Shown: piece by piece, positions 2,425 through 5,802 of the stretch | Numbering within the stretch: position 1 is the stretch's first letter | Layout of the letters: the number at the start of each line of letters is the position of its first letter | Assembly (NCBI RefSeq): GCF_024105735.1 | Contig: NZ_JAAAML010000001.1 | Coordinates: forward strand, 310,001 to 374,000 | Direction of reading: 5' to 3' | DNA length: 64,000 nt | Source of the DNA: Parahoeflea alexandrii | GTDB lineage: Bacteria > Pseudomonadota > Alphaproteobacteria > Rhizobiales > Rhizobiaceae | Notes under the pieces: generated by a model | Databases searched by the model: none | Told to the model about the DNA's origin: nothing | Seen by the model: the letters and a program-made list of their open reading frames with translations, nothing else | Program-made: the position numbers and the translations under genes

Positions 2425-2892
2425 ATGCGTCACGTTGATTTTTCACCACTCTACCGTTCGACGGTCGGTTTCGACAAGCTGTTGACGATGCTCGACAGCC
2501 TTGCTCCCGCCGACCAGTCACAATCCTATCCGCCCTACAATATCGAGCGAACCGGCGAAACCACCTACCGCATCACCATGGCGGTTGCAGGTTTCGATGA
2601 AACCGAGATCTCGATCGAGGCACGCGAACACGTGCTGACGGTCAAGGGCGAGAAGGCCGAAGACACTTCGTCCGAAGGTACGGAGTTCCTGTATCGCGGG
2701 ATCGCCAAGCGCGCATTCGAGCGCCGCTTCCAGCTCGCCGATCATGTCGAGGTCACCGGCGCATCGCTGCGCAACGGTCTGCTGCATGTGGATCTGGTGC
2801 GGGAAATCCCCGAGGCAATGAAGCCGAGGCGGATTGCAATCAGCAAGGATGCTGGCGGAAACCCGAAGCAGATCGAAGCCAAACAGGCCTGA
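2425..2892 (+). CDS. Small heat-shock protein (Hsp20/IbpA class)
   Basis: A 155-residue ATP-independent holdase. After a short N-terminal arm (RHVDFSPLYRSTVGFD, the class-A rhizobial signature) comes an alpha-crystallin domain from about 35 to 130. It includes YNIERTGE, FDETEISIE, LTVKGEK, a FLYRGIAKRAFERRF core and the beta-strand L-x-N-G-L-L-H-V motif. A short tail ends in QIEAKQA and retains RRIAI in place of the usual I-x-I. It should bind unfolding proteins in the cytoplasm during heat stress. A strong AAGGAGG sits 6 nt before the ATG and is sequestered by the leader hairpin. A clear terminator follows. Confidence 0.93.
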   Translation: MRHVDFSPLYRSTVGFDKLLTMLDSLAPADQSQSYPPYNIERTGETTYRITMAVAGFDETEISIEAREHVLTVKGEKAEDTSSEGTEFLYRGIAKRAFERRFQLADHVEVTGASLRNGLLHVDLVREIPEAMKPRRIAISKDAGGNPKQIEAKQA

Positions 2893-2986: not shown

Positions 2987-3577
2987 TTACGCGGGAGCGT
3001 AATGTGGCTTGCCGCCGCGTGCGCGGCTGAGCCATGCGTCTACGGAGAGCAGTCCCGGGCCCTTGATGATGATGACGGCAAGCGGCACCAGCCACAAAAG
3101 CCGCTGATCGGCAATGATGGCATCGGGAAAACGGTCAAACAAGGTTCCGATACTTTCGGCGCCAATCTGATGCACGGTGATGTCGACGAATGTCTGCACC
3201 GCAATGAAGCCAACCATGCCAAGTGCGGCCAGGCGTGAAAACAGACCGATGACAACGAGAAGCGGCAGGATGAACTCCGCATAGGTGCCCATGACCACTA
3301 GCAGGCCCCAGGGAAAGAACGGAACGGCGCTGACATCGCCTCCGGCAGCTTCCACCGCCGGCAGGGCGATCTGGTAGTAGGCACCCGGCGAGATCGAGAA
3401 AAATCCCAGCAGTCCGTCTCCGACCTTGGTGTTTGCTGAGTGGAGGAAGTAGTTCCACAACACCGCGGCGAAGGCGAACCGTGCGATCAGGCCAAGCAGC
3501 CAGCTGTCGCCGAGACGCTCAATCCCGGCAAAAACACGGGCATGGAGACCGGTAAGGAAGTCGATTGTCGATGTCAT
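2987..3577 (-). CDS. bufD: DoxX-family membrane protein of the bufferin operon (BufD-like)
   Basis: A 196-residue inner-membrane protein with four hydrophobic helices and the DoxX pattern (RFAFAAVLWNYF near the start, GTYAEFILPLLVVIGLFSRLAALG in the middle). DoxX proteins are the usual last gene of DUF2282-DUF692-DUF2063 clusters; their exact role is not known. The ATG at 3577 overlaps the stop of the preceding gene in an ATGA junction and has GGAGGA upstream, so it is translationally coupled. An upstream in-frame start exists but lies inside bufC. Position in the operon is the best evidence for its job. Confidence 0.8.
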   Translation of the reverse strand: MTSTIDFLTGLHARVFAGIERLGDSWLLGLIARFAFAAVLWNYFLHSANTKVGDGLLGFFSISPGAYYQIALPAVEAAGGDVSAVPFFPWGLLVVMGTYAEFILPLLVVIGLFSRLAALGMVGFIAVQTFVDITVHQIGAESIGTLFDRFPDAIIADQRLLWLVPLAVIIIKGPGLLSVDAWLSRARGGKPHYAPA

Positions 3578-4377
3578 GAAGGGTCCTCCGAATTTGGCTC
3601 GCCGAACCAACAGGCGGAAAATACGCCGGCCTCGAGCATGGCTGAAATGGCTGATGGAAGGTCGAACTCCGGATATCGCGCGATAGTTGAATCAGCTGCC
3701 TCCCCGAGGGTGGCGCCCGAAATCAGCGCCAGGAAGAAATCGGCGGCACCTGCGGGCAGCTGGCGGACCTCGACGGAATAGGCCGGTCGCGTGATCAACC
3801 CGTCTTCGGCGTTGGCTGGCCGAATCCCATCAAGTGTTCGCTCCTCGCGACTTGCCGAGAAGATGGAGATCGCTGCAAACCGGCTCTGCACGATCCGGGT
3901 TGCCGGGTGGGGGGTGAAGGTCGTGTCAGCCAGGCGTTCGGGCGGAATGGCACCGAGGCTGCCGGGGTGCAGTGGATCGGCGTCGGCAGCATGAAAGGCA
4001 TCAAGCCATGCCCGTTCCAACCGGGCCACATCCGGCAGGTAGGGATACGCGGCGAGCGGCTCGAATTGGCTTAGAAAATCCGCAAAGCCGCCGCCATACT
4101 CGAAAATGACCGGAGACCGCGGCGGCTCCTGGACAAGGTACAGCCGGGCCATGTCACGAAAGAACGTCTCGCCGACCAGACGCTGGAGCGCGGGGAATAT
4201 GCCTGCAAGGGCGTCAATCAGGCTGACAGTGACATTGTTTCTGTAAATGGCAAAACGTCTGGCGGCCTTCTTGCCGTTCGGAGCGGTAATGCCTTCGGGC
4301 AACGGCAGGTCAGGGTCGAGAAGCGCCGCACCGAAATCGTGCTGGCCGGAGCCGACCATTGGTTCATTCCGCGGCAT
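3574..4377 (-). CDS. bufC: DUF2063-family partner protein of the MNIO enzyme (BufC-like)
   Basis: A 267-residue soluble protein. Residues about 10-100 form the DUF2063/HvfC N-terminal domain (ALLDPDLPLPEG, RRFAIYRNNVTVSLIDAL, FPALQRLVGETFFRDMAR, EYGGGFADFL, YLPDVARLERAW). The remainder is an HvfC-type C-terminal domain. In MNIO systems this protein presents the precursor peptide to the DUF692 enzyme. Start ATG 4377 overlaps bufB by 14 bp; ATG 4359, seven codons in, also fits the family N-terminus. The 3' end overlaps bufD by ATGA. All three enzyme genes are thus tightly coupled, suggesting fixed stoichiometry. Confidence 0.85.
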   Translation of the reverse strand: MPRNEPMVGSGQHDFGAALLDPDLPLPEGITAPNGKKAARRFAIYRNNVTVSLIDALAGIFPALQRLVGETFFRDMARLYLVQEPPRSPVIFEYGGGFADFLSQFEPLAAYPYLPDVARLERAWLDAFHAADADPLHPGSLGAIPPERLADTTFTPHPATRIVQSRFAAISIFSASREERTLDGIRPANAEDGLITRPAYSVEVRQLPAGAADFFLALISGATLGEAADSTIARYPEFDLPSAISAMLEAGVFSACWFGEPNSEDPS

Positions 4378-5284
4378 GACGGGATCCGAGCAGCGAGGCC
4401 GGTCCGAGCCGGTCGAGAATGGCATCGGCGAGACGGGCTTCGCGGCGCAGCACCGGCCATTCGGGAACATCATTGTCCCATTCAATCAGCGTCGGCAGGG
4501 CGCCGGCCTGACAGATGACAGTCTCGTAGAGTTTCCAGACGGCATCGGCAACGGGGCGGTCATGGGCGTCGATCAGGATGAGATCACCCTCGTCGTCGAC
4601 ATCCTCGGCATGACCAGCGAGGTGGATTTCTTCCACCAGTTCCAGCGGGAAGTCGCGCAGGTAGTTCATCGGCTTCCAGCCGTGGTTGGTGGCGGAGACA
4701 AAGACATTGTTGATGTCGAGCAGCAGCCCGCAGCCGGATTTCTGGGCGATCTCGCGGATGAAATCGGTCTCGCTCATCGTCGACTGCTCGAAGGCCACGT
4801 AGGTGGATGGGTTTTCGAGCAGGATCGGGCGCCTGAGCCGGTCCTGGATCTGGCTGATATGGGCGACGACACGATCAAGCGTCTGCCGATCGTAGGGAAC
4901 CGGCAGGAGATCATTGAAATAGCCTGCATCATGGCTCGACCAGGCCAAGTGTTCGGAGACCATGCTGGGCTGGTAGCGGTCCACGACGCGGGCAAGGCGT
5001 TCCAGATGTGCCGTGTCGATGCCCTCTTCGGACCCGATCGACAGGCCGACCCCGTGAACGGACAGCGGGAATTCGCTACGGATCGCGGCAAGCGCGCGAT
5101 GGGCGGGACCGCCTTCGCCCATGTAGTTCTCCGCGTGAACTTCAAGAAACCCTATCCTGTAGTCGTCAGCGAGAATGGCATCGACGTGGTCGGTCTTCAG
5201 ACCCGCTCCCGCACGAGGCGGGAGAGGGCCGGACGGAAAACGCGAGTTTTCGACAATCGGCGGTTTGGGGGCGGACTGTGTCAT
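4364..5284 (-). CDS. bufB: DUF692 multinuclear non-heme iron oxidase, peptide-modifying (BufB-like)
   Basis: A 306-residue TIM-barrel enzyme of the MNIO (DUF692, MbnB/TglH) family. Metal ligands and signature strands are present in order: EVHAENYM (48-55), SVHG (His77), SEHLAW (Glu111-His112), LLENPS (Glu157-Asn158), LLLDINN (Asp190, Asn193), HLAGH (His221, His225), IDAHDRPV and LIEWDND. Members oxidatively rearrange cysteines of a precursor peptide; bufferin enzymes make thiooxazoles. The neighbouring precursor and DUF2063 partner make this the likely activity. It starts 32 bp after the precursor gene and acts in the cytoplasm before export. Confidence 0.9.
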   Translation of the reverse strand: MTQSAPKPPIVENSRFPSGPLPPRAGAGLKTDHVDAILADDYRIGFLEVHAENYMGEGGPAHRALAAIRSEFPLSVHGVGLSIGSEEGIDTAHLERLARVVDRYQPSMVSEHLAWSSHDAGYFNDLLPVPYDRQTLDRVVAHISQIQDRLRRPILLENPSTYVAFEQSTMSETDFIREIAQKSGCGLLLDINNVFVSATNHGWKPMNYLRDFPLELVEEIHLAGHAEDVDDEGDLILIDAHDRPVADAVWKLYETVICQAGALPTLIEWDNDVPEWPVLRREARLADAILDRLGPASLLGSRHAAE

Positions 5285-5316
5285 TTCGTGTTTCCCGTTT
5301 TCCAGATGATTTCGGA

Positions 5317-5622
5317 TCAGGCCGGAAGATCGCGGTCGAGCGGCTCGAGCGAGCCCATGCGGCCGCCTTCAACGCTCATCGTGGTGCAGGTGCCTGCATC
5401 GACGGTTTTCCAGGCGTTGCCCTGGAAGTCGACCTTCGAGGTGCCTGCACAAGTGGTGCCGGGGCCGGCTGCGCAGTCATTCTTGCCGGCCATGGCAACG
5501 CCATAGCACTTCTCAGTTGCGGCTGCTGCGCCCTGGGTCGATGCGAGGAAAGTTGCGCCCGAAATGGCCATCGCTACTGCGCCGGCCAGAGTGGAAGCGC
5601 CGATAAGTGCTTTCTGCGACAT
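5317..5622 (-). CDS. bufA: DUF2282 RiPP precursor, bufferin-type (BufA1-like)
   Basis: A 101-residue precursor with an export signal (hydrophobic 6-28, likely cleavage after GAAAA near 36). A four-cysteine core follows: Cys39 in EKCYG, Cys50 in GKNDC, Cys58 in TTCAGTSK and Cys79 in [13 protein letters not shown]...GKNDCA and CAGTSKVD are the hallmarks of DUF2282 bufferin precursors. After Cys79 there is an unusual charged tail ([18 protein letters not shown]). AAGGAGAA stands 5 nt before the ATG. It heads the operon and should be the modified, exported, copper-binding product. Metal specificity is inferred from the family. Confidence 0.9.
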
Positions 5623-5695
5623 GGTGTTCTCCTTGGATGTTTCAAAACCATTCCCGGACTTTTCGTGTCCGGCAGGAGAACCATGACGAATTGTC

Positions 5696-5738
5696 GCATC
5701 ACTTGGAAATCAAGCGCACGTTATCCGGCATCACTTGG
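5696..5738 (-). promoter_or_regulatory. 11-bp direct repeat upstream of bufA, possible operator
   Basis: CCAAGTGATGC (minus strand) occurs twice, at 5738-5728 and 5706-5696, exactly 32 bp apart (about three helical turns), 75-115 bp upstream of bufA. Such spacing suits a same-face dimeric regulator or an ECF-sigma element. No sigma factor gene lies beside this operon, unlike sigF-linked buf operons. The factor is unknown. Confidence 0.4.
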
Positions 5739-5802
5739 CCGTGAGCCAGGCGTGATGCTGTCTATTCTTTCGACTTGCGGTTTTGCGTGGCTTTGACCGG
5801 GC

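Follow-up and report, generated by a model that had tools for sequence, protein, structure and literature searches.

A conserved promoter site suggests CenR-type control of a SigF-free bufferin operon in Parahoeflea alexandrii

Bufferins are among the largest peptide families made by MNIO enzymes, and to our knowledge nobody has named a switch for those bufferin operons that have no adjacent sigma factor. Such an operon lies on the minus strand at positions 2987-5622 of the window, the 64,000-nucleotide stretch of Parahoeflea alexandrii DNA analysed here (contig NZ_JAAAML010000001.1, positions 310,001 to 374,000). What turns it on? We consider it probable that this Buf1 operon, which stands without SigF-NrsF, is activated by a CenR-type regulator through the dyad TCAC-N6-GTGA and an adjoining conserved element upstream of the precursor gene bufA. 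The novelty lies in a promoter site that bufferin operons with and without SigF share.

The preliminary description of this DNA had proposed a complete bufferin-type operon of precursor, MNIO enzyme, partner and DoxX, and all four genes are present:

5317-5622, minus strand: bufA, Buf1 (DUF2282) precursor of 101 amino acids with an N-terminal signal-like segment and cysteines at 39, 50, 58 and 79
4364-5284, minus strand: bufB, MNIO (PF05114) maturase of 306 amino acids, assigned by profile and PDB matches
3574-4377, minus strand: bufC, DUF2063 partner protein (PME type 1) of 267 amino acids
2987-3577, minus strand: doxX, DoxX-family membrane protein of 196 amino acids if translation begins at ATG 3577 (the open reading frame as called by program starts earlier, at TTG 3610)
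5629-5634, minus strand: Shine-Dalgarno sequence AAGGAG of bufA, recognised by eye and conserved in an alignment of Hoeflea-group promoters

A spacing of 32 base pairs (bp) separates bufA from bufB, and the overlaps described earlier, 14 bp between bufB and bufC and ATGA between bufC and doxX, were borne out. Profile searches of the four proteins, suggested in the same description, placed each above its Pfam cut-off: BufA at 81.9 bits against DUF2282 (cut-off 22.4), BufB at 347.8 bits against PF05114 (25), BufC at 94.6 bits against DUF2063 (27.2) and DoxX, barely, at 25.9 bits against DoxX (23.6). BufB also exceeded the NCBIfam equivalog MNIO_BufB, NF050167 (379.8 bits; cut-off 310); BufC and DoxX were matched by the HvfC and HvfX models, both with scores under the cut-off, and BufA had no match among the NCBIfam models. 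The four core cysteines ascribed to the DUF2282 precursor are invariant among 10 aligned BufA sequences, and its N terminus carries a hydrophobic stretch ending in AAA, as judged by eye rather than by a predictor. In the PDB, BufB matched 3bww (E 5.4e-39), TglH and MbnB, and BufA had no relative at E <= 1. A model of BufC, for which 40 of 71 available BufC sequences were aligned (the window and 39 of 70 relatives), reached a mean predicted local distance difference test score of 93.6; the only PDB chains that it matched at E <= 0.001 were TglI (8hci, 8hi7) and NGO1945 (3dee), which PMC12452194 names as PME type 1 partners. Because of these family matches and the match of the BufC model to TglI and NGO1945, we assign the operon to the Buf1 bufferins. 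Judged from its sequence, it is of an ordinary, already known kind, with the four-gene core described for Buf1 operons (PMC12452194).

The source genome (4.9 Mb, 13 contigs) holds one DUF2282 match and one PF05114 match, and hence a single copy. BufA was matched in every one of 18 genomes sampled from the genus, the nearest named relative being Hoeflea alexandrii (94 percent BufA identity), and the order IMPase-hydrolase-Hsp20-doxX-bufC-bufB-bufA-lyase is kept in all 17 relatives fetched; gltB is also in place in 16 of them, and the contig of the 17th ends before it. As BufA is found in all 18 of these genomes and the order persists in 17 relatives, the operon is not a chance arrangement.

Could SigF drive it? 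That no sigma or anti-sigma gene adjoins had been noted before, and this holds: the operon is flanked by genes for a lyase-like protein and for Hsp20. The Hsp20 gene (window 2425-2892, plus strand) is convergent with doxX and keeps its place next to the operon in syntenic loci throughout the family. For comparison, 199 genomes were drawn from the family, of which 104 had DUF2282; 107 of their bufA loci outside the genus were compared, 56 syntenic and 51 other, where 'syntenic' means any match to Hsp20, lyase or GltB, and NrsF was not used for labelling. One syntenic locus with tandem bufA (L163) was treated apart, leaving 55 in the counts, and L197, whose upstream stretch was wrong or too short, left 50 others; the small contig G105:C633 was covered by L062 only. 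None of the 56 syntenic loci has NrsF within 4 kb of bufA, versus 39 of the 51 others; the remaining 12 lack it at that distance. The SigF-type motif, GTAAC-N15-18-CGAW sought within 300 bp of bufA, occurs at 0/55 syntenic loci versus 36/50 others. NrsF had no match in the whole source genome, and SigF control of the window operon was rejected on the absence of both NrsF and the SigF-type motif. The earlier supposition that control differs from the sigF-linked type thus agrees with the lack of NrsF, the lack of the motif at syntenic loci and the conservation of a different element there.

In the BufB tree there are 3 changes between the syntenic and other labels versus 35.8 in shuffles. One SigF-linked group of 10 falls among the syntenic loci, a tentative placement given that some nodes are weakly supported. 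A BufB group of its own comprises L099, L106, L116, L126, L128 and L137, all of them among the 12 loci without NrsF within 4 kb; their BufA has the core TATHSC, not GPGTTC, and their scores against the CenR matrix (below) are low. Two further variants are a tandem pair of bufA ahead of bufB (L092, L095, L163) and, in the syntenic locus L160 (genome G159), a divergent BufA core (GAHSCQGQS) with a shortened C terminus and an intact promoter element.

What is conserved in place of a SigF promoter? In an alignment of 18 Hoeflea-group promoters, a block of about 60 bp is kept amid variable surroundings. Upstream of bufA, the dyad comes first and TTGATTTCCAAGTGA follows:

5731-5744, minus strand: dyad TCAC-N6-GTGA (TCACGGCCAAGTGA), exact here and equal to the arms of the Sinorhizobium meliloti CenR site
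5699-5723, minus strand: element TNRCG-N5-TTGATTTCCAAGTGA, with the TTGATTTCC core conserved in the family's syntenic loci
5680-5684, minus strand: conserved A 5684 (54/55 family loci) and T 5680 (40/55), possible second and sixth bases of a -10 box, or else the A a start site
5654-5672, minus strand: leader hairpin CCGGAC-N7-GTCCGG, its stem bases differing and its pairing kept in many relatives

The preliminary description had given neither the minus strand nor the conserved promoter element.

CenR is a response regulator of envelope stress. Its site in S. meliloti is AGTCAC-N6-GTGACT, established by gel shift and promoter mutation (PMC9561847), and in R. sphaeroides it recognises TGA-N8-TGA, for which Table 1 of PMC9275681 lists 31 sites; the bufA dyad is compatible with both. 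We counted dyads in the 200 bp upstream of bufA, allowing at most one mismatch unless an exact match is stated. They occur at 45/55 syntenic, 33/50 other family and 18/18 Hoeflea-group loci (background, 104/2836 windows), and exact dyads at 19/55, 9/50 and 17/18, respectively (background, 0/2836). A second sample of 80 named loci, 22 with Hsp20 synteny and 58 others, gave 68 with the dyad (17/22 and 51/58), against 29/993 and 86/2571 background windows; 19 of the 80 were exact, against 0/993 and 4/2571. The seven named non-syntenic loci without it include that of the gammaproteobacterium Thioalkalivibrio (L267). Other promoters of the same loci rarely carry it: Hsp20 0/52 and 0/17, abhydrolase 4/45, bufB 2/23 and doxX 1/34. 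A matrix of the 31 R. sphaeroides sites scored above the 95th percentile of dinucleotide shuffles at 44/55 syntenic and 32/50 other family loci, at 14/18 Hoeflea-group loci and at 25 of 41 further named loci without SigF-type motif or synteny; scores above 9.8 bits were found in 2.7 percent of random 200-bp windows versus 80 and 62 percent of bufA regions. The dyad is present in SigF-linked loci and in other orders as well. At Rhodobacterales loci (L209, L210, L227, L273, L277 and others), serial TGAC-N6-GTGA sites stand upstream of bufA without the TTGATTTCC core.

The second half of the block marks the syntenic type. Its core, TTGATTTCC-N2-KTKA, lies 79-139 bp upstream of bufA in 55 of the 56 syntenic loci (31 other genera), and in the 56th, L163, upstream of the first of the two bufA copies. 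Element scores are at least 26.4 at the 55 syntenic loci, at most 24.8 at the 50 others and at most 24.0 in shuffles, a gap that is partly by construction, the consensus having been derived from the same syntenic loci. Some columns that the scoring did not use are fixed too: 54/55 loci have A at +29, 50 have T at -10 and 47 have C at -7. Most of the 55 loci have TCAC at -31 and GTGA at -21. Among the named loci, the core scores at least 26 at 19/22 with Hsp20 synteny and at 2/58 without. In the source genome the 25-base pattern occurs once without mismatch and three times with two mismatches; its reverse, used as a control, gave one match. A regulon defined by the whole element was rejected on this single perfect copy and on two-mismatch matches at the level of the reversed control. 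Likewise set aside were CueR/MerR-, FNR- and RpoH-type readings of TTGATTTCC, which misfit in spacing or second half-site (judged by eye). Where the TTGATTTCC letters were sought in the literature, all of the matches listed were unrelated.

Instead of a CenR-type site, the block might be that of another dedicated regulator, such as a copper-responsive or heavy-metal response regulator, its likeness to the CenR site being coincidental. The full element occurs once in the source genome, whereas a regulator with dozens of targets would usually have more sites; TTTCC is almost invariant and outside the CenR consensus; and two regulators encoded in the source genome come closest to the heavy-metal subfamily TIGR01387, each scoring under its cut-off. 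Yet neither of these two has the dyad in its own promoter, no regulator gene is retained beside the operon in the syntenic loci inspected, and the dyad half of the block, shared with SigF-linked loci and other orders, equals a site tested experimentally in the same family. We hold this explanation to be rather unlikely.

Promoter geometry sets the two types side by side. The dyad begins 31 bp ahead of TTGATT in 26/55 syntenic loci and 25 or 26 bp ahead of GTAAC in 24 loci with the SigF-type motif; in the S. meliloti pSymB operon it begins 25 bp ahead of the GTAAC of the RpoE7 promoter (PMC6180224), and 60 bp upstream of the start, assuming that the last printed promoter base is the start site. 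The fixed A at +29 of the syntenic type is likewise 60 bp from the dyad start. Alternatively, this A could be the second base of a -10 hexamer and the T at +33 its sixth. The half-sites TCAC, GTGA, TNRC, TTGA and KTGA succeed one another every 10-11 bp, a series that would resemble the arrays of OmpR-family regulators.

Between the promoter element and the Shine-Dalgarno sequence sits the leader hairpin. Its best stem reaches at least 15 in 59/73 promoters versus 11 of the single shuffles, and stems within the genus (such as CCGGAC/GTCCGG, CCGGG/CCCGG and CCGGAA/TTCCGG) use different bases with pairing kept; the hairpin may stabilise the precursor transcript. One could ask whether the conserved block itself is a riboswitch-like RNA leader element and not an operator, given its closeness to the gene and a following hairpin that keeps pairing as bases change. 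The hairpin, however, lies downstream of the block, which is conserved by sequence and not by covariation, and the dyad is upstream of the mapped S. meliloti SigF promoter and hence outside that transcript; we consider an RNA element highly improbable.

Does the genome encode a suitable regulator? Eleven of its proteins have a PF00486 domain. One of them, L289, has 227 amino acids with Asp55, Leu95 and Glu159, a combination that none of eight other regulators compared shows; S. meliloti CenR has 228 codons; D55E is its phosphomimetic form, and Leu95 and Glu159 are further positions mutated in it (PMC9561847). L289 is also the sole regulator gene of 10 checked with an upstream dyad (one mismatch), and no CenR model in NCBIfam names it. 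L289 is a CenR candidate by these length and residue features. In a variant of the account, the response regulator EssR, which interacts with CenR, has the leading role and mediates the action of CenR. In Brucella the two proteins interact and share 33 peaks in chromatin immunoprecipitation sequencing (PMC10746171), and the buf block holds more than one half-site pair, making a heteromer possible; against this, an EssR gene was not identified in the source genome. EssR as main regulator seems to us quite improbable.

The activation by a CenR-type regulator that we favour would work as follows. BufB and BufC would oxidise the core cysteines of the BufA precursor in the cytoplasm, a type of reaction that yields thiooxazoles. 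The product would be exported to the periplasm by Sec and bind excess copper there, with DoxX as an accessory membrane protein. An OmpR-family regulator of CenR-type specificity would bind the dyad and the adjoining TNRCG...TTGATTTCCAAGTGA element and activate the operon, and bufferin would be produced within an envelope-stress response; SigF-linked relatives, which retain the dyad directly ahead of the -35 box of SigF, would combine both inputs. We infer the chemistry, the copper binding and the identity of the binder as CenR, EssR or both.

Several observations weigh against this account. The dyad is missing from 10/55 syntenic and 17/50 other family loci, and three syntenic named loci, L218, L220 and L248 (Rhizobium rosettiformans, Peteryoungia aggregata and Rhizobium rhizophilum), have a degenerate element. 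No clear -35/-10 was recognised in promoters of the syntenic type, and TTTCC is conserved beyond what a CenR half-site needs, so that it may be recognised by a different factor or a specialised sigma. No bufferin gene appears in the R. sphaeroides CenR regulon table (31 entries, PMC9275681; the presence of bufferins in that species was not searched), among the four S. meliloti dyad genes in the excerpt of PMC9561847 or in section 13 of the Brucella CenR/EssR paper (PMC10746171). Finally, overexpression of RpoE7 alone induces the S. meliloti operon (PMC6180224), so a requirement for CenR there is not implied.

With these points in the balance, we propose from the promoter sequences that bufferin operons of Alphaproteobacteria receive transcriptional input from CenR or from its partner EssR. 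The broadest form of this proposal, to which we incline by a little, is that bufferins across the Alphaproteobacteria are wired to CenK-CenR (and EssR) through the TCAC-N6-GTGA upstream of bufA, that certain lineages gained SigF as a further input, and that the Hoeflea type has in its stead a tandem array of its own, which ends in TTGATTTCC-N2-KTKA. No link between CenR or EssR and bufferins was found among the papers listed in a full-text search of open-licence literature. If true, the proposal, with its site present at most sampled alphaproteobacterial bufA promoters, would connect copper buffering with general envelope stress and explain the control of SigF-free bufferin operons.

Of known systems, the CenR regulon (R. 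sphaeroides, S. meliloti srlA, Brucella) shares the TSAC-N6-GTGA site and its placement near the promoter; it differs in regulon tables that, as excerpted, list no bufferin gene, and the buf element adds the TTTCC core. S. meliloti SMb20530-20527, of the RpoE7 regulon, is an operon of the same four-gene kind in the same family with the dyad TCAC-N6-GTGT, whereas there an ECF16 sigma factor and anti-sigma factor adjoin, the location is a megaplasmid and BufB belongs to the SigF-linked group. The Buf1 operon CC3254-CC3257 of Caulobacter has a DUF2282 precursor, DUF692 (MNIO), DUF2063 and DoxX in identical order; by contrast, sigF-nrsF adjoins it and its promoter is a SigF-dependent GTAACC-N16-CGAA (PMC3511200), and the window operon has no SigF-type motif and its genome no NrsF. 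The Gig operons (Cupriavidus, Legionella) and the captophorins (fontiphorin, oxazolin) likewise pair an MNIO enzyme with a DUF2063 partner to make copper-related peptides (PMC13097082, PMC5413113), but the fontiphorin and oxazolin precursors carry EGKCG repeats, whereas the precursor in the window is of the four-cysteine DUF2282 type.

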